64,000 nt of DNA from Nocardioides sp. URHA0020 (GTDB lineage Bacteria > Actinomycetota > Actinomycetes > Propionibacteriales > Nocardioidaceae), in the NCBI RefSeq assembly GCF_000620705.1, contig NZ_JIAR01000033.1, positions 62,001 to 126,000 of the forward strand, read 5' to 3'. Within the stretch, counting starts at the first letter, position 1; the number at the start of each line of letters is the position of its first letter. Below, in pieces: positions 8,470 to 49,852 of the stretch. The notes under the pieces were generated by a model. It was not told the origin of the DNA. It saw only the letters and a list, made by a program, of their open reading frames with translations, and did no database searches. The position numbers were made by a program, and so were the translations under genes.

Positions 8470-11373
8470 TCACTTCGGGGCGAGGGCGATCGTCCACGCG
8501 ACGCCCCGGGTGCTCGGCGCGTCCGTGGTGGCCGTGAGGCCTCCGACCGTGCCGGGCGCCACCGTCGCGTTGCTGTCGACGAGCGCCGCCGTGACGCGAC
8601 CGGTGCCGGTGCCGTACGCCGTCGACCGGGTCGTGGTGGTCGCCGGCAGGGTCCACGCGGTCGTGGTGCCCGACTTGTCCGTCCAATAGGTCGCCAGCCA
8701 GGCGCCGGAGGGTGCGGTCACCGTCGGCGCCACGTGGGTGGCCGACGACGACGTGATGGAGGAGCCGATGGCGCTGCCCGCGACGGTGGCGTTGACGTCG
8801 CGGTAGGCCGCCAGGACCAGCGTCGACTTGATCACGGCGTTGAAGGACACCGGCACGCTCGTCGTGCTGTCGCTCGCCGTCGCGGTCCTGCTGTAGACCC
8901 CCGACCACAGGCCGTTGTTGACCCGGGAGCCGAGCAGCGTCCACCCGCCGCCCGGGAGCGTCGCACCGGGGTCGGTGACGCCGCCGGACACGAAGAGCAT
9001 CAGCTGGTCGCCCGCCTGGGTGCTGCTCGGGGTCGCGAGGCTGACGTTTTGGGCGTTGTACGCCCCTTGTGCGGAGCCGACGAAGCCGATGGTGGAGGTG
9101 GCTGGGGCCGTCGGCGCGACCTGCTTCTGCACGACGGTGGTGCCGCCGAGGTCGTCGGTCAGGGTCACCGTCGCGGTGTAGCTGCCGGCGGCGTACGTGT
9201 GCTGGACGGTGGCGCCGGTGTCGGAGCTGCCGTCGCCGAAGTCCCAGGCGTACGACGCGATGGTGCCGTCGGGATCCGTGGATCCGGCGGCGTCGAACGA
9301 GCAGACCAGGTCGCTGCACGACGCGGTGACCTGGGCGGTCGGCGGCTGGTTGTTGAAGGTCGGCGCGAGCCACAGGGCGCGGTTGCGCCAGTCGGCGGTC
9401 GAGACGGTGGTCGCCGAGCCGGACGTCGCGGCACCGTCGAAGGCGATCCGCGACAGGTTGCCGCTGGTCGTCGAGACGTAGTAGAGGTAGCCGTCGGAGA
9501 CGAACATCCCGCCGACCCGGCGGAAGTCGATCGAGCTCGAGACCGTGAAGACCTCGGAGCCGACGATGTCGCTGTCGGTGCTGAAGTAGCGGTAGCGCAG
9601 CGTGGAGCTGTTGCTGGTCGCGTAGTAGATCCGCTCGTTGCTGTACGCCAGCGCCTGGGTGCTGTTCAGCGAGCCGTAGAGGTCCGGCAGCCTGCCGTTG
9701 TAGACCGAGTTGCTGCCGGTGTCGACGCCGACCCATGCCGGGTCGAGGTAGGGGTCGATCTTCGTGGCGGCGCCGAGCACCCGACCGTCCCACGACCGCT
9801 TGTAGAGGTAGCCGTCGGTGCGGCCGTAGTAGAGGTTGCCGCCGGCGTAGAAGCCGCCACGGGCGCTGCTCCAGCCGTCACCGGTCGCGACGGTGCTCGC
9901 GGCACCGGCGGTGGTGCCGTCGAACGTACGACGCGTGAGCGTGTCGCCGCTGGTGCTCGCGGTCAGCACGTCGGCGGGCAGGCTGGCGACGGCGTCGTCC
10001 TTCTGGGTCGAGCCGGTGGCGTAGGGGAACATCGCGATCCGCGGTCGGAAGATCGCGAAGTTGCCGATCCACTCCGTGTCGCTGCCGAGGTAGAGGCCCT
10101 TCGAGCCCGCGTAGATGTCGAACACCGCCGCACCGCGGGGGTTGCGGCCGGGGTTCCAGGAGAGCGGGACACCGGTGGTGCTGTCGAGGGCGGCCAGGCC
10201 CGGACGCGGCACCGCTCCCTGGCCGGCGTAGTCGTTGCCGTCGCCGTTGTTCATCCAGCGCTGGTGGCCGCCGGCGTACACGACGTCGTTGGCGACCTCG
10301 ACGGCCCAGATGGTGTCGCCGCCGGCGTAGTCGGCCCAGGTCGGCTGCAGCTCCTGACCGCTGCCGTTGGTCTCCCAGCGGGTCGCCGAGTCGCACAGGG
10401 TCCCGTTGTTCTTGCCACCGGTGGTCCCGATGACGAAGTAGGAGCCGTCCGGCGAGTACGTCACGCTGCGCATGTAGCTGTCGTAGGCCCAGTTGAAGCA
10501 GTAGGGCTCGTAGCGCCTCGTCTTCCAGTCGGTGCGGACGACGGCGGACGGGCCGGTCAGGTCGGCCTGGAAGACCTGGTCGCGGGCCAGCCCGTCGGCC
10601 GTCTTGAAGTTGCCGACCACGACCATGCTCTGGCCCGTCGAGGCGACGTCGAGCTCCTTGACCCCGACCCCGCCCTGGGCACCACCGCCCGTGTCGTTGT
10701 GACGCTGGGCGAGCTGGATGTTGACGAAGGGGTCGAGGGCGCCGGTGCCGGCGTTGAGGGTCGCGATGCCGCCGTGGGTGACCCCGCCGACGACGGTGAA
10801 GAGCCCCCCGACGTACAGGCGACCGTCGGCGACGTCGATCGAGCTGATGACGCCGTTCATCGCGGGGGCCTTGAAGGACGGGACGACCGCTCCCGTGGCG
10901 GTGTTCAGCAGCACGAGCTTGGGGTTCTTGGTGCCGTTGACGGTGGTGAAGGCGCCGGCGACGTACACGGTGCCCGCCGTCGGGCCGGGCTCGACGTCGT
11001 TGACGATGCCGTCGAGGACCGGGGCGAAGGTGCTGCTGAGCTGCCCGCTGTCGCGGTCGAAGGCCAGGACGTAGGACCGGTCCACGGTCGGCTGGTTGGC
11101 GCCGTAGTTGGCCGCCTGGGTGAACGTGCCGCCGAGGACCATCGTGCTGCCGACCTCGGTGATGGCGTACGTCGCGCCGTTCTTCACCTGGGGCGTGGCG
11201 GCGCTGGGGGCCGTGTCCGGCACGGTCGCGGCGTCGGCCGACGTGGCGGCCAGCGGGGTGAGGGAGCCGATCAGCACCGCCGCCACGGTGGCGATGCCGA
11301 TCAGCTGGCCCGTGCTGCGACGGTGGTTCAACAAGACGCGCCCCTGATCACTCGACGCGACGTCCCACGACAT
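8470..11373 (-). CDS. Secreted beta-propeller and PKD-domain surface protein
   Basis: 967 residues from ATG 11373; an upstream GTG at 11400 or a later TTG are alternatives. After a positively charged start there is a signal-peptide core (LIGIATVAAVLIGSLTPLAA) with cleavage near ADAAT. The N-terminal half has repeated YVAGAFTTVNG / YVGGLFTVVGG units like delta-60 repeats, forming a propeller. A PKD domain follows (GSTDPDGTIASYAWDFGDGS). The last 200 residues form a Thr/Ser-rich domain (IGFVGSAQGAYNAQNV onward) seen in other actinobacterial exported proteins. No LPXTG motif or C-terminal TM anchor is seen. Probably cell-envelope or matrix associated; no enzymatic motif. Confidence 0.85.
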   Translation of the reverse strand: MSWDVASSDQGRVLLNHRRSTGQLIGIATVAAVLIGSLTPLAATSADAATVPDTAPSAATPQVKNGATYAITEVGSTMVLGGTFTQAANYGANQPTVDRSYVLAFDRDSGQLSSTFAPVLDGIVNDVEPGPTAGTVYVAGAFTTVNGTKNPKLVLLNTATGAVVPSFKAPAMNGVISSIDVADGRLYVGGLFTVVGGVTHGGIATLNAGTGALDPFVNIQLAQRHNDTGGGAQGGVGVKELDVASTGQSMVVVGNFKTADGLARDQVFQADLTGPSAVVRTDWKTRRYEPYCFNWAYDSYMRSVTYSPDGSYFVIGTTGGKNNGTLCDSATRWETNGSGQELQPTWADYAGGDTIWAVEVANDVVYAGGHQRWMNNGDGNDYAGQGAVPRPGLAALDSTTGVPLSWNPGRNPRGAAVFDIYAGSKGLYLGSDTEWIGNFAIFRPRIAMFPYATGSTQKDDAVASLPADVLTASTSGDTLTRRTFDGTTAGAASTVATGDGWSSARGGFYAGGNLYYGRTDGYLYKRSWDGRVLGAATKIDPYLDPAWVGVDTGSNSVYNGRLPDLYGSLNSTQALAYSNERIYYATSNSSTLRYRYFSTDSDIVGSEVFTVSSSIDFRRVGGMFVSDGYLYYVSTTSGNLSRIAFDGAATSGSATTVSTADWRNRALWLAPTFNNQPPTAQVTASCSDLVCSFDAAGSTDPDGTIASYAWDFGDGSSDTGATVQHTYAAGSYTATVTLTDDLGGTTVVQKQVAPTAPATSTIGFVGSAQGAYNAQNVSLATPSSTQAGDQLMLFVSGGVTDPGATLPGGGWTLLGSRVNNGLWSGVYSRTATASDSTTSVPVSFNAVIKSTLVLAAYRDVNATVAGSAIGSSITSSSATHVAPTVTAPSGAWLATYWTDKSGTTTAWTLPATTTTRSTAYGTGTGRVTAALVDSNATVAPGTVGGLTATTDAPSTRGVAWTIALAPK

Positions 11374-11504
11374 CGCTCGCAGCCAGACAAGCGTCACCAC
11401 CCCCGCGGGGCCGGGTCCGACCGCCCGAATACCCGACTTTGGCTACGACTCGTGGGCAGCAGACCCGAGGCAGTCGTCCGGGCGGCCGGGTGCGCCGCGT
11501 CGTC

Positions 11505-12244
11505 GGTGGTCGAGCAGCGAGCGCCAGCGAGCGTCGTCGAGACCTCCGCTCCCGACGTACTGCCTCGGCTGCGGAGGTTTCGAGACGGGCCTAGCGGCCC
11601 TCCTCAACCACCGGGGCTTCCGGTGGTCGAGCAGCGAGCGCCAGCGAGCGTCGTCGAGACCTCCGCTCCCGACGTACTGCCTCGGCTGCGGAGGTTTCGA
11701 GACGGGCCTAGCGGCCCTCCTCAACCACCGGGGCTTCCGGTGGTCGAGCAGCGAGCGCCAGCGAGCGTCGTCGAGACCCCCGCACCCGAAGTCGCGCCTC
11801 GGGTGCGGGGGTTTCGAGACGGGCCTGGCGGCCCTCCTCAACCACCGGTGGGGCCGAGTCCTCCTCAACCACCGGGGCTCCCGGTGGTTGAGGTGCGAAG
11901 GCCGCCAGGCCTGAGCCTCGAAACCACCCCGCACCCGACGTACTGCCTGGGCTGCGGGTCTTTCGAGACGGGCCTGGCGGCCCTCCTCAACCACCGGAGG
12001 GGCCCGCGTCCTCCTCAACCACCGGAGGGGCCGCGTCCTCCTCGACCACCGGAGCCCCCGGTGGTTGAGGTGCGAAGGCCGCCAGGCCTGAGCCTCGAAA
12101 CCACCCCGCACCCGACGTCGCGCCTCGGGTGCGGGGGTTTCGAGACGGGCCTGGCGGCCCTCCTCAACCACCGGTGGGCCCGAGCCGGGCGGGGCTCCTC
12201 AACGACCGGTCGGTCCAGGCCTGGCGGCCCTCCTCGAACACCGG
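11505..12244. repeat. B1 array of about 110-bp palindromic repeats
   Basis: Five long hairpin units start at 11505, 11622, 11739, 11883 and 12060; the first three are spaced exactly 117 bp. Each unit begins GGTGGTYGAG and ends CTCCTCAACCACC. Matched inner blocks GGCCGCCAGGCC, CTCGAAACC and CCCGCACCC pair across a short centre, so a whole unit can fold into one long imperfect stem. Half-copies (CTCCTCAACCACCGG) fill the gaps. Units 1-3 have the variant left arm with CGAGCAGCGAGCGCCAGCGA; units 4-5 the GTGCGAAGGCCGCCAGGCC arm. The array occupies the divergent gap between the PKD protein gene and the mutase gene; 11374-11504 holds nothing recognisable. Confidence 0.85.
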
Positions 12245-12259
12245 GGGGCGCGGCCCTCG

Positions 12260-12272: not shown

Positions 12273-13910
12273 ATGAGTGACCTGCTCGACGCCGCCCGTG
12301 CCTGGGCCGCCGACGACCCCGACGACCAGACCCGCGCCGAGCTAGAGGCCGTGATCGCGGAGGTCGAGGCGGGCGGGGACCGGAGCGATCTCGCGGACCG
12401 CTTCGACGGCACCCTCGAGTTCGGTACGGCGGGCCTGCGCGGCGAGCTCGGCGCCGGGCCCAACCGGATGAACCGGGTCGTCGTCACCCGTGCCGCGGCC
12501 GGGCTGGCCGCCTACCTCGCCGACACCGGCCACCGCGGCGGCGCCGTCGTGATCGGGTACGACGCCCGCCACAACTCCGACGTCTTCGCCCGTGACACCG
12601 CCGAGGTGATGACCGGCGCCGGCTTCACGGCGTACGTCCTCCCGCGCCCGCTGCCCACCCCGATCCTCGCCTTCGCGATCCGCGAGCTCGGCTGCGCCGC
12701 CGGCGTGATGGTCACCGCCAGCCACAACCCGCCGCGCGACAACGGCTACAAGGTCTACCTCGGCGACGGCAGCCAGATCGTGCCGCCCGCGGACGCGGAG
12801 ATCGCGGCCCGGATCGCTGCCGTCGGCGCGGTCGCCGACGTCCCGCGCGGACGGCCCGGGAAGGTGCTGCAGGAGGAGCTCGTCGACAGCTACCTCGACA
12901 CCGTCGCCGGCCTCGTCGAGGACGGCCCCCGTGACCTCGAGATCGTCTACACCCCCCTGCACGGCGTGGGCGGGGTGCCGGTCGAGCGGGTGCTCGAGGC
13001 GGCCGGCTTCGACGCACCGTCGGTCGTGGCGCGGCAGGAGCAGCCCGACCCCGACTTCCCGACCGTCGCCTTCCCCAACCCCGAGGAGCCGGGGGCGATG
13101 GACCTGGCGATGGCGCTCGCCGAGCGCAACGGCGCGGACCTGGTGGTCGCCAACGACCCGGACGCCGACCGGTGCGCGGCGGCCGTGCCGGGCCCGCACG
13201 GCTGGCGGATGCTGCGCGGCGACGAGGTCGGCGCGCTGCTCGCGTACGCCGTCCTCGCCTCGGGCAAGCACGGCACCTACGCCTGCAGCATCGTCTCCTC
13301 GAGCCTGCTCGGGAAGCTGGCGGCCGCGGCCGGTCAGCCGTACGCCGAGACGCTCACCGGCTTCAAGTGGATCAGCAAGGTCGACGGCCTGGCCTACGGC
13401 TACGAGGAGGCCCTCGGCTACTGCGTCGACCCCGACAACGTCAAGGACAAGGACGGCGTCTCGGCGCTGCTGCTCCTGTGCGACCTCGCCGCCGACGCGA
13501 AGGCCCAGGGCCGCACCCTGGTCGACATCCTCGACGACATCGCGCTCGCGCACGGGCTGCACGCCACCGACCAGCTCTCGGTTCGGGTCACCGACCTCGG
13601 TGAGATCGCGGCCGCGATGGCGCGGCTGCGGGCGACGCCCCCGACCGAGCTCGGCGGGCTGGCCGTCGAGGCCGTCGACGACCTCTCCCTCGGCAGCGCG
13701 GCGCTGCCGCCGACCGACGGGCTCCGCTACCGCCTGGTCGACGGCGCCCGCGTCATCGTCCGCCCGAGCGGCACCGAGCCCAAGCTCAAGTGCTACCTCG
13801 AGGTCGTCGTGCCGGTGGACCCCGAGGACGGCGTCGACGCCGCTCGGATCGCCGCCGTCGGCCGGCTGGACGCGCTGCGCAACGGCATCAAGGCCGCCGC
13901 CGGCATCTAG
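12273..13910 (+). CDS. Phospho-sugar mutase (phosphoglucomutase/phosphomannomutase/phosphopentomutase type)
   Basis: 545 residues of the alpha-D-phosphohexomutase superfamily, PGM2/PmmB-like branch by its N-terminus (LEFGTAGLRGELGAGPNRMN). The phosphoserine loop is TASHNPP (S150), the Mg loop DPDADR (295-300), sugar loop GFKWISK, and phosphate-binding loop RPSGTEPKLKCY near the C-terminus. ATG 12273 is preferred over an upstream in-frame start that would translate the B1 repeats. Between punA and deoC in order, a phosphopentomutase role ((deoxy)ribose-1-P to 5-P) would complete the salvage route; this is inference, hexose activity is equally possible. Its stop overlaps the stop of the converging gene. 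Confidence 0.88.
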   Translation: MSDLLDAARAWAADDPDDQTRAELEAVIAEVEAGGDRSDLADRFDGTLEFGTAGLRGELGAGPNRMNRVVVTRAAAGLAAYLADTGHRGGAVVIGYDARHNSDVFARDTAEVMTGAGFTAYVLPRPLPTPILAFAIRELGCAAGVMVTASHNPPRDNGYKVYLGDGSQIVPPADAEIAARIAAVGAVADVPRGRPGKVLQEELVDSYLDTVAGLVEDGPRDLEIVYTPLHGVGGVPVERVLEAAGFDAPSVVARQEQPDPDFPTVAFPNPEEPGAMDLAMALAERNGADLVVANDPDADRCAAAVPGPHGWRMLRGDEVGALLAYAVLASGKHGTYACSIVSSSLLGKLAAAAGQPYAETLTGFKWISKVDGLAYGYEEALGYCVDPDNVKDKDGVSALLLLCDLAADAKAQGRTLVDILDDIALAHGLHATDQLSVRVTDLGEIAAAMARLRATPPTELGGLAVEAVDDLSLGSAALPPTDGLRYRLVDGARVIVRPSGTEPKLKCYLEVVVPVDPEDGVDAARIAAVGRLDALRNGIKAAAGI

Positions 13911-44001: not shown

Positions 44002-44085
44002 GGAGCGCACCGTGACGTCGGCTACAGAGTGTGACCTTTTCGGCGTCCCCGATCGCCGTACGACTGCGTCGGCGCCCGGCCCCCC

Positions 44086-44677
44086 GGTGGTTGAGGAGGG
44101 CCGCCACTCCACCCAGTGGTTGAGGAGGACGCGGCCCCCCGGTGGTTGAGGAGGGCCGCCAGGCCCGTCTCGAAACCCCCGCACCCGAAGCAGTACGTCG
44201 CGTGCGCGGTGGTTTCGAGGCTCAGGCCTGGCGGCCTTCGCACCTCAACCACCGGAAGCCCCCGGTGGTTGAGGAGGGCGCGGCCCCACTCCGGTGGTTG
44301 AGGAGGGCCGCCAGGCCCGTCTCGAAACCCCCGCACCCGAGGCGGTACGTCGCGTGCAGGGTGGTTTCGAGGCTCAGGCCTGGCGGCCTTCGCACCTCAA
44401 CCACCGGAACCCCCGGTGGTTGAGGAGGCCGGCGGCCCCCGGTGGTTGAGGAGGGCCGCCAGGCCCGTCTCGAAACCCCCGCACCCGAGGCAGGACGTCG
44501 GGTGCGGGGGTCTCGACGGCGCTCGCTGGCGCTCGCTGCTCGACCACCGGGGCTGCGACCCCACTCCGGTGGTTGAGGAGGGCCGCCAGGCCCGTCTCGA
44601 AACCCCCGCACCCGAGGCAGGACGTCGGGTGCGGGGGTCTCGACGACGCTCGCTGGCGCTCGCTGCTCGACCACCGG
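44086..44677. repeat. B2 array of about 110-bp palindromic repeats
   Basis: Four full hairpin units (44141-44255, 44293-44407, 44441-44550, 44568-44677) with half-copies of GGTGGTTGAGGAGG between and before them. Unit structure equals B1 but the array runs in the opposite orientation: each unit begins GGTGGTTGAGGAGGGCCGCC and ends CTCAACCACC or CTCGACCACC. Units 1-2 carry the AGGCTCAGGCCTGGCGGCC arm, units 3-4 the CGCTCGCTGGCGCTCGCTG arm, so both subtypes of B1 recur. It lies upstream of mutAB and downstream of the sulfatase gene. No gene is present in 43989-44723. Confidence 0.85.
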
Positions 44678-44723
44678 AGGGGCGGGTTCGAGGGTCGAGC
44701 ACCGGTCAGGTGGTCAGGAGGAG

Positions 44724-46256: not shown

Positions 46257-47039
46257 CTAGGGCTGAATCTCGATACGTCCGTCGTTGTCCTTGTTGCGCA
46301 AGCCGATCTTGCTGCCCAGCCAGACGAGCGGGTCGTACTTGCGGTCGACCACGCGCTCCTTCATCGGGATGATCGCGTTGTCGGTGATCTTGATGCCCTC
46401 GGGACACACCTCGGTGCAGCACTTGGTGATGTTGCACATCCCCAGCCCGGCCGCGCCCTGGGCCAGCGCACGGCGGTCATGGGTGTCGAGCGGGTGCATG
46501 TCGAGCTCGGCGTACCGCAGGAAGAACCGCGGCCCGGCGAACGCCGGCTTGTTGTCCTCGTGGTCGCGGACGACGTGGCAGGTGTCCTGGCACAGGAAGC
46601 ACTCGATGCACTTGCGGAACTCCTGCCCGCGCTCGACGTCGATCTGCGCCATCCGGCGCTTGCCGTCGGCGTCGCGCGGCGGGAGCTCGGCGTACGGCAG
46701 CTCCTTGGCCTTCTCGTAGTTGAACGAGACGTCGGTGACTAGGTCGCGGATGACGGGGAAGGTCCGCATCGGGGTGACCGTGATCGTCTCGGTCGGCTCG
46801 AAGTCGGAGAGCCGGGTCATGCACAGCAGCTTGGGGCGGCCGTTGATCTCGGCCGAGCAGGAGCCGCACTTGCCGGCCTTGCAGTTCCACCGGATCGCGA
46901 GGTCACCGGTCTGGGTGGCCTGAAGGCGGTGCAGGGCGTCCAGGACGACCTCGCCCTCGGAGACCTCGACGGTGTAGTCGGCGAGGTCGCCGCCCTCCTG
47001 GTCACCGCGCCAGACGCGCATCTTCAGGTCGTAGCCCAC
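46257..47039 (-). CDS. Succinate dehydrogenase iron-sulfur subunit, Sdh1 type
   Basis: 260 residues from GTG with a GAAGGGA ribosome site. [2Fe-2S] ligands C53, C58, C61 and C73 (NCKAGKCGSC...LLC), then CIECFLCQDTC and CNITKCCTEVCPEG for the two further clusters. It carries electrons from the flavoprotein to quinone. Order anchor-flavoprotein-FeS on one strand equals mycobacterial sdh1 (Rv0249c-Rv0247c by memory). It is separated from its flavoprotein gene by the B3 repeat cluster, an odd position within an operon. Confidence 0.92.
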   Translation of the reverse strand: MGYDLKMRVWRGDQEGGDLADYTVEVSEGEVVLDALHRLQATQTGDLAIRWNCKAGKCGSCSAEINGRPKLLCMTRLSDFEPTETITVTPMRTFPVIRDLVTDVSFNYEKAKELPYAELPPRDADGKRRMAQIDVERGQEFRKCIECFLCQDTCHVVRDHEDNKPAFAGPRFFLRYAELDMHPLDTHDRRALAQGAAGLGMCNITKCCTEVCPEGIKITDNAIIPMKERVVDRKYDPLVWLGSKIGLRNKDNDGRIEIQP

Positions 47040-47057
47040 TGTTGCTTCCCTTCTCCG

Positions 47058-47194
47058 GGTGGTTTCGAGGCTCGCTTCGCTCGCACCTCAACCACCGCGT
47101 TGGCTCTTCGCTCGCACCTCAACCACCGCGTCGGCCCGCTTCGCTCGCACCTCAACCACCGTGTTGGCTCGCTTCGCTCGCACCTCGACCACCG
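47058..47194. repeat. B3 short repeats inside the sdh1 operon
   Basis: Four copies of CGCTTCGCTCGCACCTCAACCACC (slightly varied; split here over about 24 bases) spaced about 30-35 bp, preceded by GGTGGTTTCGAGG. The wording is that of B1/B2 unit ends, but reduced to single arms that can pair as GCGAG.CTCGC-type stems. The cluster fills the whole gap between the flavoprotein stop (47195) and the FeS-subunit leader. It could be a processing or mRNA-stability element, as REP sequences are in enteric operons. Confidence 0.8.
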
Positions 47195-49048
47195 CTACTC
47201 GAAGTACTTCTTGAGCTCGTCCGGCATCACCGGGAGCGGCTTCTCGTGCAGGTCCACCCCGGTGCCGTCGGCGTTCAGCGTGACGACGAGGTTCTTCGTG
47301 CCCCAGACCTCGTGGTCGGTCTTCGGGAAGTCGTCGCGCGTGTGGCCGCCGCGCGACTCCTCGCGCGCCAGGGCCGCCTTGGCGATGGCCTCGGAGACGA
47401 TCAGCATGTTGCGCAGGTCGATCGCGAGGTGCCAGCCGGGGTTGTACTGCCGGTGCCCCTCGACGACCATCGTCTGCGCCCGCACCTTGAACGCCTCGAT
47501 CTCCCGCAGCGACTCCTCGAGCTCGGGGCCGGTGCGGATGATGCCGACGAGGTCGTTCATGGACTGCTGCAGGTCGTGCTGGATCGTGTAGGGGTTCTCG
47601 CCGCCTTCGACCTCCAACGGCGCGAGCGCGCTCGCCTTCGCCGTGTCGATGTCGGCCTGGTCGACCGACGGGCGGGCATCGCCGAGCGAGGCCGCGTACG
47701 CCGAGGCCGCCTCCCCCGCGCGCTTGCCGAAGACCAGCAGGTCACCGAGCGAGTTGCCACCGAGCCGGTTGGACCCGTGCATGCCGCCCGAGCACTCCCC
47801 GACGGCGTACAGCCCGGTCACCGCGCTCTCCTGGGTGTCCGCGTCGACCTCGACGCCACCCATCACGTAGTGGCAGGTCGGCCCGATCTCCATCGGCTCC
47901 GCGGTGATGTCGACGTCCGCCAGCTCCTTGAACTGGTGGTACATCGAGGGCAGCCGCTTGCGGATGAACTCCGGCGTACGGCGTGACGCGATGTCGAGGA
48001 AGATGCCACCGTGCGGTGATCCGCGGCCGGCCTTGATCTCGGAGTTGATCGCCCGGGCGACCTCGTCGCGCGGCAGGAGCTCAGGCGGGCGCCGGTTGTT
48101 CTTCTTGTCGTCGTACCACCGGTCGGCCTCCTCGATCGTGTCGGCCGTCTCCGCCTTGAAGAACTCCGGGATGTAGTCGAACATGAAGCGCTTGCCCTCG
48201 GAGTTGCGCAGGATGCCACCGTCGCCGCGCACCGACTCGGTGACCAGCAGCCCCTTCACCGACGGCGGCCAGACCATGCCCGTCGGGTGGAACTGCACGA
48301 ACTCCATGTTGATCAGGGCGGCTCCGGCGCGCATCGCCAGCGCGTGGCCGTCTCCCGTGTACTCCCAGGAGTTCGAGGTCACCTTGAAGGACTTGCCGAT
48401 CCCGCCGGTCGCGAGGATCACGGTGGGGGCGTCGAAGGTGATGAAGCGGCCGGACTCGCGCCAGTAGCCGATGGCGCCGGCGATCGTGTCGCCGTCCTTG
48501 AGCAGGTCGGTGACGGTGCACTCCATGAACACGTCGATGCCGAGCTGCACGGTGCGCTGCTGGAGGGTGCGGATCATCTCCAGGCCCGTGCGGTCACCGA
48601 CGTGAGCGAGGCGGGCGTACTTGTGGCCGCCGAAGTCGCGCTGCGAGATCAGCCCGTCCTCGGTGCGGTCGAAGAGCGCACCCCAGTCCTCGAGCTCCTG
48701 CACCCGCTCGGGCGCCTCCTGGGCGTGCAGCTGGGCCATCCGCCAGTTGTTCAGCATCTTGCCGCCGCGCATGGTGTCGCGGAAGTGCACCTCCCAGTTG
48801 TCCTCGGGCCAGCGGTTGCCCATGGCCGCGGCGATGCCGCCCTCGGCCATCACCGTGTGCGCCTTGCCGAGCAGCGACTTGCAGACGACCGCCGTGCGGG
48901 CGCCGGCCTCGTGCGCGGCGATCGCGGCGCGCAGGCCCGCGCCGCCCGCGCCGACCACGACGACGTCGTACGTGTGCCGCTCCATGCCGCCCTCGCTGGA
49001 GCCGGACATCTCGTTACCGGTCATCGGGTGCCGGGTGCTGTCGGCCAT
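47195..49048 (-). CDS. Succinate dehydrogenase/fumarate reductase flavoprotein, Sdh1 type
   Basis: 617 residues. FAD Rossmann motif VVVVGAGGAGLRAA (GAGGAG at 33-38), covalent-FAD His candidate H64 in GKAHTVMAEGG, substrate residues in VQFHPTGMVWPP and SVRGDGGILRNSEGKRF, and GSNRLGGNSLGDLLVFG near the capping domain. It oxidises succinate to fumarate at the membrane. The KAHTVMAEGG rather than HSxAAQGG wording separates it from the second enzyme at 51.9 kb. It directly follows the anchor gene (stop and start adjacent) and precedes repeat cluster B3. Confidence 0.93.
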   Translation of the reverse strand: MADSTRHPMTGNEMSGSSEGGMERHTYDVVVVGAGGAGLRAAIAAHEAGARTAVVCKSLLGKAHTVMAEGGIAAAMGNRWPEDNWEVHFRDTMRGGKMLNNWRMAQLHAQEAPERVQELEDWGALFDRTEDGLISQRDFGGHKYARLAHVGDRTGLEMIRTLQQRTVQLGIDVFMECTVTDLLKDGDTIAGAIGYWRESGRFITFDAPTVILATGGIGKSFKVTSNSWEYTGDGHALAMRAGAALINMEFVQFHPTGMVWPPSVKGLLVTESVRGDGGILRNSEGKRFMFDYIPEFFKAETADTIEEADRWYDDKKNNRRPPELLPRDEVARAINSEIKAGRGSPHGGIFLDIASRRTPEFIRKRLPSMYHQFKELADVDITAEPMEIGPTCHYVMGGVEVDADTQESAVTGLYAVGECSGGMHGSNRLGGNSLGDLLVFGKRAGEAASAYAASLGDARPSVDQADIDTAKASALAPLEVEGGENPYTIQHDLQQSMNDLVGIIRTGPELEESLREIEAFKVRAQTMVVEGHRQYNPGWHLAIDLRNMLIVSEAIAKAALAREESRGGHTRDDFPKTDHEVWGTKNLVVTLNADGTGVDLHEKPLPVMPDELKKYFE

Positions 49049-49852
49049 CTAGAAGAACCTCACGTCGTCGATGGTCCCGGTCGCCAGCAGGTAGATGTAG
49101 AAGTCGACGATGGCGATCGAGAAGAGCGAGTACCACGCGAAGGCGGCGTGCCGGGCGTTCAGCTTCGACACGAGCGTCCAGGCCCTGTAGCGGACCGGGT
49201 GCTTGGAGAAGTGCCGCAGGCGGCCGCCCACGATGTGGCGGCAGGAGTGGCAGCCCAGCGTGTATCCCCAGATGAGCACCACGTTGATCAGCATGAGCAG
49301 CGTGCCGAGCCCCATGTGGATGCCGTCGGACTCGCCCTCCGCGGGGCCGAACGCGAGCACCACGTCGTACGTCAGAATCAGCGCGACCGCGACGGCGGCG
49401 TACCAGAACCAGCGGTGGACGTTCTGGAAGATCAGCGGGAAGCGGGTCTCGCCGGTGTACTTCGTGTGGGGCTCGCCGACCGCGCAGGCCGGCGGCGACA
49501 GCCAAAACGCGCGGTAGTAGGCCTTGCGGTAGTAGTAGCAGCTCATCCGGAAGCCCAGCGGGAAGATCAGGATGATCAGCGCCGGCGACAGGCTCCACCA
49601 GCTGAAGGGCTGCCCGAAGTCCGAGGACCCCGCGACGCAGGAGTCGCTGAGGCAGGGCGAGTAGAAGGGCGAGAGGTACGGCTCGGAGAAGTAGTTGTCT
49701 CCCGAGAAGGCCCGCCAGGTCGCGTAGACGATGAAGGCCGCGAAGACCACGAAGGTCGTCGCCGGATAGAGCCACCATCTGTCGGTGCGAAGCGTCTTCG
49801 CGTCGATCCGGGCTCTCGTGGGCCCGTTCACACCCGTCAGATCTGTCGCCAT
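49049..49852 (-). CDS. Sdh1 membrane anchor subunit
   Basis: 267 residues from ATG 49852 with a GGAGG site upstream. Five hydrophobic helices (about 31-48, 87-105, 150-168, 180-198 and 233-257). Context and order identify it as the SdhC-like quinone-binding anchor of a mycobacterial-type Sdh1. It has the cluster GCHSCRH (C201, H202, C204, H206) next to helix 4, and a second Cys pair between helices 1 and 2 (C67, C72). Sdh1 of mycobacteria is reported to hold a membrane-embedded Rieske-type [2Fe-2S] cluster; CHSCRH is a candidate ligand set here, by inference. It is unlike the SdhC at 51.1 kb. Confidence 0.82.
   Translation of the reverse strand: MATDLTGVNGPTRARIDAKTLRTDRWWLYPATTFVVFAAFIVYATWRAFSGDNYFSEPYLSPFYSPCLSDSCVAGSSDFGQPFSWWSLSPALIILIFPLGFRMSCYYYRKAYYRAFWLSPPACAVGEPHTKYTGETRFPLIFQNVHRWFWYAAVAVALILTYDVVLAFGPAEGESDGIHMGLGTLLMLINVVLIWGYTLGCHSCRHIVGGRLRHFSKHPVRYRAWTLVSKLNARHAAFAWYSLFSIAIVDFYIYLLATGTIDDVRFF

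Follow-up and report, generated by a model that had tools for sequence, protein, structure and literature searches.

The sdh1 operon of Nocardioides sp. URHA0020 raises the question of what a cluster of short repeats is doing between the genes for the flavoprotein (sdhA) and iron-sulfur (sdhB) subunits of a single enzyme complex, and of how the cluster came to be there. The operon lies within a window of 64,000 nucleotides, which is the whole stretch of DNA that was analysed, on contig 13 of the 4.68-Mb genome. The initial annotation of this DNA offered two readings, namely that the copies change the subunit ratio by setting mRNA stability or terminating part of the transcripts, or that they represent a recent insertion at a tolerated place.

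The sdhA-sdhB gap in URHA0020 and in its relatives

The repeat cluster between the two genes is real. It is made up of four tandem copies that read toward the iron-sulfur gene, as had been noted, and their 23-base core, which is found four times in the window when up to three mismatches are allowed, was absent from 100 shuffled sequences. The copies start at spacings of 31, 33 and 33 bp and are recognised by TRF as 3.9 copies with a period of 33. The repeat is a hairpin element, with O denoting its opening and C its closing half; the sdh array is accordingly written as O4C. In the mRNA sense the unit reads CGGTGGTTGAGGTGCGAGCGAAGCGAGC followed by a short linker, and the closing arm, CCTCGAAACCACC, continues the last unit. 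The gap (47040-47194) had been described as 155 bp of repeat arms. Its length is indeed 155 bp, but the repeat occupies only 137 bp, the remaining 18 bp being spacer, and a full palindrome is formed only next to sdhB, the other three copies being half-elements. Between units there are differences at up to four bases, and one unit is 2 bp shorter. The linkers show no match to the 5' flank of the array, so that the duplication step is not legible at this locus.

The coordinates of the features are collected in Table 1. The gene called directly before sdhA gave no Pfam match at E<=0.001 and is perhaps a membrane anchor, judged by its position alone. Gaps elsewhere in the window had been described as only a few bases in length. 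For the 37 co-oriented gaps, counted on the gene calls made in this analysis, this is partly true, with a median of 16 bp and 21 gaps of 30 bp or less, but four, including the sdh gap, are at least 155 bp long.

Table 1. Features of the sdh1 locus and of two related repeat clusters in the window
Feature	Coordinates	Strand	Remarks
Mixed-palindrome cluster including the 46-nt subtype, O..OC groups	11504..12250	.	between divergent genes
Related cluster with O..OC groups	44073..44680	.	between co-oriented genes
sdhB, iron-sulfur subunit	46257..47039	-	NCBIfam NF009052; GTG start
Spacer with SD-like GGAGAAGGG ahead of the sdhB GTG	47040..47057	-	18 bp
Polar O-O-O-O-C array, from the sdhA stop to the sdhB leader	47058..47194	-	137 bp
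Complete palindrome (opening and closing arms), the only one in the array	47058..47097	-	adjoins the sdhB spacer
Half unit 3	47098..47128	-	31 bp
Half unit 2	47129..47161	-	33 bp
Half unit 1 (opening half and linker)	47162..47194	-	33 bp; starts 0 bp after the sdhA TAG
sdhA, flavoprotein subunit	47195..49048	-	NCBIfam NF005866
Called gene directly before sdhA	49049..49750	-	own gene call; 0 bp gap

The comparison of gap lengths in related genomes, which had been suggested as a check, distinguishes URHA0020 clearly. A match to SdhB at E<=1e-80 was found in 60 of the 147 genomes of the genus, and the gap was measured in 58 of these, URHA0020 included, the other two being left out because the match lies at a contig end. 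With each gap taken as far as the position that aligns to residue 1 of SdhB, some true starts lying some codons upstream, 57 of the 58 junctions measure between -4 and +38 bp and are too short to hold the array, and only URHA0020 has 155 bp. The nearest genome sampled (G038, with 97% SdhB identity) has a gap of 11 bp. Of 80 named loci from a second collection, which partly overlaps the first and whose closest named match to SdhB comes from Nocardioides sp. Root1257 (94%), 78 have gaps of at most 38 bp. The other two gaps, of 74 and 203 bp, are without the repeat in their printed sequence and may reflect N-terminal extensions.

An empty site is available for a sibling array on contig C9 of the URHA0020 genome, the flanks of which are separated by only 0-1 bp in G038, G066 and G041, whilst between those of G008, G010 and G102 there are about 5 to 21 bases without a match. 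The alignment at this empty site may hint at a CCGG target duplication, but the 3' flanks of 63 elements have no comparably conserved base. A separate locus, C8, has in G041 what may be a decayed single element, too faint to serve as evidence.

On this comparative evidence the sdh repeat is a lineage-specific insertion, and the second of the two earlier readings, an insertion at a tolerated place, is supported. The word recent is more doubtful, since the differences of up to four bases between the units, together with the loss of 2 bp from one of them, indicate that the array is not very young. The 18-bp spacer that precedes sdhB is taken to be the spacer that existed before the insertion, given that close relatives have 1-26 bp at this place.

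The palindrome family and its one-sided arrays

The pattern GGTGGTTTCGAGGC-N8-24-CCTCAACCACC has 95 exact copies in the URHA0020 genome and the reversed-pattern control has none. At least one such palindrome is found in 35 of the 147 genus genomes, and G038 has none. There are two main subtypes, one of 39 nt, to which the sdh element belongs, and one of 46 nt that contains an inner stem. In 16 hand-picked variants of the 46-nt subtype, the outer arms of which are fixed by the search pattern, five of the five inner pairs are changed on both sides, with 17 such cells against 5.0 in shuffles, a value reached by none of 500. The number of pairs with two-sided changes, five, was equalled by 20 of the 500 shuffles, and four of the sixteen variants break two of the five inner pairs. 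OnC elements were found inside called genes in none of 160 cases in the URHA0020 stretches and in eight of the 105 arrays of a wider sample. The high copy number, the location outside genes and the compensatory changes in the inner stem all point to a REP-like element.

The base on the 5' side is a C in 62 of 63 exact URHA0020 elements, and no conserved tetranucleotide, including the GTAG/CGTC tag, was found on either side of these 63. A Y1 (IS200/IS605-like) transposase, sought with PF01797, was detected in none of the 147 genus genomes, including URHA0020, with five of 14 control genomes positive. Judged by these defining features, the element is outside the GTAG/CGTC and RAYT-served classes. 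A 151-bp query gave no match at E<=1e-5 in plasmids or phages, and a 27-base pattern had no exact match in viral contigs.

Of the other two clusters in the window, the mixed one is flanked by genes at 8470-11373 (minus) and 12273-13910 (plus) and contains higher-order tandem repeats of 117 and 177 bp. The other is found downstream of sdhB, in a gap of 735 bp that has a minus-strand gene on either side, and consists of OOOC, OOC, OOC and OC groups with higher-order repeats of 152 and 127 bp. In G146 and G083 several elements are found no more than a few hundred bases from the start of a contig, so draft assemblies may be fragmented at such repeats and underestimate their number. In G019 some elements form pairs separated by about 900 bp. 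These were considered as transposon ends and rejected, as they are positioned upstream of and inside paralogous genes and showed no link to mobility. The genes concerned (L178-L183) are about 80-87% alike over at least 1.5 kb, the upstream copies have a period of 48, and in L179, which encodes a DUF222 protein, the inner element forms an in-frame portion of the protein.

The most distinctive property of the family is that half-elements are repeated on one side only. Tandem O-O pairs, at 14-28 bp, are found in 47 of the 147 genomes, with 45 pairs in URHA0020, whereas tandem C-C pairs are found in none of the 147. Such C-C pairs should have appeared, since genomes such as URHA0020, with its 95, hold many exact C arms, although the exact C pattern is narrower than the variation of the C arm between species, which lowers the C-C counts. 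Whole elements also occur in tandem (OCOC, OCOCOC), so the one-sidedness concerns the half-element arrays. A different, whole-element mode of growth is seen at L007 (G000:C5:724807-724978), where three nearly whole elements follow each other at 72 and 61 bp and carry flank that duplicates the upstream gene's end.

A set of 105 distinct arrays was assembled from the window (7), other URHA0020 loci (32), 14 loci that are BLAST hits of the sdh gap (15) and 40 loci hand-chosen among the O-O matches listed (51); the sample is thus hand-picked, and the thresholds applied to it were fixed after examples had been viewed. Each array contains between 2 and 18 O, with a recognisable C at the end of 89 and none in 16, and the unit length depends upon the locus but is mostly 26-36 bp. 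Three runs in the scan ended in CC and there were five isolated extra C-like matches, of which that at L194 resembles a real partial C arm.

The linkers provide a second indication of direction. The five bases that precede the O of the first and of the last linker were compared with the five that stand ahead of the array's initial O (four genomes, n=81), and agree at 2.83 and 2.88 of the 5 positions, compared to 2.27 and 2.29 in within-genome permutations, none of 3000 of which was as high. Against the 3' flank the agreement is 1.77 compared to 1.70 (p=0.26). Because the linkers resemble the 5' flank and not the 3' flank, the repeated unit seems to carry the 5' flank with it. In G022 the linkers (for instance those of L191, L192 and L228-L244) frequently have CCCCT, or a sequence close to it, as their last bases ahead of CGGTGG; the element may prefer such targets or may itself extend further in the 5' direction.

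Ordinary replication slippage on the palindrome, coupled to selection, would offer a more familiar route to such arrays, with C-side duplications being equally frequent but subsequently lost. The near-perfect tandem units of some genomes are in keeping with slippage, the units of two arrays in G020 being 99% matching over 12.9 and 18.2 copies. This explanation is nonetheless rather unlikely, as it has to contend with the 47 to 0 imbalance between O-O and C-C genomes, with linkers that are like the 5' flank only, and with the polarity of arrays in convergent gaps that is described below.

Position of the arrays and expression signals

The position of the arrays relative to genes was determined with a codon-usage gene caller made for the analysis. 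The stop codon of a gene that runs the same way as the array is no more than 30 bp from the O end in 39 of the 105 arrays, whereas a stop facing the C end is this close in only six (p 5.4e-7). In ten of the 39 the first O itself supplies the TGA stop of the upstream called gene, and in these cases the insertion may have re-ended the upstream protein; without them the bias is 29 against 6. These ten arrays are at L190, L191, L232, L234, L240, L241 (two arrays), L250, L256 and L260. The bias is 31 against 5 in the 89 arrays that bear a C, 30 against 4 of 90 when the 14 BLAST-hit loci of the sdh gap are removed, and 33 against 4 of 66 in the other genomes. It is weak in the URHA0020 arrays (6 against 2 of 39, or 10 against 3 of 52 in a larger set), and single URHA0020 elements have no stop-codon bias (7 at the O end against 5 at the C end, of 108).

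In convergent gaps, four of which contribute two arrays each, the O end is the nearer to the stop in 22 of 25 cases (p 1.6e-4), and in 15 of 18 when overlaps are excluded (p 0.0075). Both ends of a convergent gap face stops, and hence selection exerted by a downstream start fails to explain the polarity.

For all co-oriented gaps the arrays are O-first along the mRNA in 30 cases and C-first in 20, but where no more than 60 bp remains on both sides all 11 are O-first, including sdh. Such an order would be expected if the repeats acted as a bridge akin to that of the mycobacterial MIRUs, in which, according to PMC12548453, an internal ORF is coupled to the gene that follows. Ribosomes could then cross the gap by way of the GTG codons and open frames of the O units, and O-first arrays would be tolerated in operons. 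At sdh there is a GTG 2 nt past the sdhA stop, frames from the GTGs of the array end either 48 nt short of sdhB or 16 nt inside the gene, and one TTG frame begun in the gap stops 38 nt inside sdhB. However, open frames are common by chance at 72% G+C, the 31-bp unit shifts the frame, no MIRU-type ORF coupled at -4 to the next start was found at sdh, and the bias extends to convergent gaps, in which a bridge is needless. A bridging function is consequently very improbable.

The signals within the gap itself bear on the regulatory reading of the initial annotation, according to which the array is a selected element that processes, stabilises or partly terminates the sdh mRNA and thereby sets the SdhA:SdhB ratio. 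The array is certainly placed exactly between two subunit genes, and its complete copy, the only strong hairpin of the array, is predicted to fold as RNA at -18.5 kcal/mol (z -3.28). Roles for REPs in termination and mRNA stabilisation have also been hypothesised (PMC3733652). Yet the RNA of the whole gap folds no better than shuffled sequence (z +0.50), no intrinsic terminator, in the form of a GC-rich hairpin followed by a T run, was found in 46900-47300, and no U-tract follows the hairpin of the last copy. No promoter was found in the gap either, and an Rfam search of 46800-47400 returned a single match up to E=1, which is outside the gap (46905-46974) and scores 18.4 bits compared to a gathering score of 70. 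Positive evidence for an effect of the copies on subunit ratio through termination or mRNA stability was thus not obtained from the gap. Moreover, the relatives have no room for the array at 57 of the 58 junctions, similar arrays are found in many unrelated gaps, convergent ones included, and the sdh units are diverging. A selected regulatory role is therefore improbable.

With the array present rather than absent, the in-silico accessibility of the SD changes to 0.55 from 0.39 unpaired, and that of the start to 0.65 from 0.73, with no clear direction overall. Translation of sdhB is likely to begin from its own SD-like leader, and a weaker translational coupling appears to be a likelier effect of the insert than an altered stoichiometry.

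Origin of the array and comparison with known systems

The array at sdh has probably arisen by insertion of a REP-like element after the sdhA stop and directional amplification of its O half into O4C. A palindrome of this type would have entered directly after the stop codon in the URHA0020 lineage, after which its 5' half, comprising the opening arm, the loop and a short linker, would have been duplicated several times to give the polar array. In this order of events the single element presumably came first and the duplication second. The insert parts two genes that lie almost next to each other in relatives, and is likely to weaken their translational coupling. The sdh locus would then represent one case of a process that has operated in many genomes of the genus, whereby half-element arrays grow from O and not from C.

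The observations behind this insertion and amplification are the restriction of the array to URHA0020 among 58 junctions, the polarity, the likeness of linkers to the 5' flank and the stop bias of the arrays. The 16 of 105 arrays without a recognisable C arm, the whole-element tandems and the weak stop bias in URHA0020 count against it. A directional process is favoured because selection by the next start fails in convergent gaps and slippage fails to account for the one-sidedness. Such a process is perhaps linked to the direction of transcription or replication.

What moves and multiplies the REPs that have no transposase is an open question, stated for the CGTC REPs in PMC3733652. It can be suggested, tentatively and with less than even confidence, that the genus hosts a directional form of DNA amplification in which the 5' half alone of a REP-like hairpin is copied, along with a few bases of the 5' flank, and units are added one way, mostly at gene 3' ends, and without a RAYT transposase. 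If true, this would add a novel mechanism of minisatellite formation as well as a novel type of short-element dynamics. The arrays themselves record the direction of growth, which recurs in 47 of the 147 genomes and is testable in laboratory strains, and sdh would serve as a natural case in which the genes for two core respiratory enzyme subunits have lost their near-contiguity.

Parallels can be drawn with several known types of repeat. Like bacterial minisatellites, or VNTRs, the arrays consist of tandem units of about 26-36 bp, the copy number of which varies by locus. Unlike them, the unit always contains one and the same half of the element, and its linker is specific to the locus and similar to the 5' flank. 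The BIMEs and REPINs of E. coli are built from whole REPs in alternating orientation and are served by RAYT transposases. The arrays share with them the clustering of palindromes of one family, but here half-elements are found, in one orientation, and no Y1 transposase was found in the genus genomes searched.

The GTAG and CGTC super-families of REPs are short imperfect palindromes of high copy number that are mostly extragenic and often clustered (Di Nocera et al. 2013, PMC3733652). As described in that paper, REPs are located mainly downstream of coding regions, and the CGTC class has no dedicated transposase. The Nocardioides elements are similar in being high-copy short palindromes that cluster outside genes and, as with the CGTC class, no dedicated transposase is apparent. 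They differ in length, at 39-48 nt compared to the 20-40 bp given there (PMC3733652), in having no tag but only an almost invariant 5' C (62 of 63), in forming half-element arrays in one orientation, and in the absence of a Y1 transposase from the 147 genomes. The string 'actinobacteri' does not occur in the text of PMC3733652, and among the matches listed from open-licence papers there was no recognisable description of this palindrome family or of one-sided REP arrays. The mycobacterial MIRUs, as portrayed in passages of PMC12548453, are likewise short repeats that are found in actinobacterial operon gaps and have reading frames inside, but the sdh repeat is palindromic, has locus-specific linkers and is not placed at a start codon with the -4 spacing. 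From its sequence features, the sdh element is thus best filed as new, as an apparent variant of the REP-like repeats that is distinguished by its one-sided half-element arrays.
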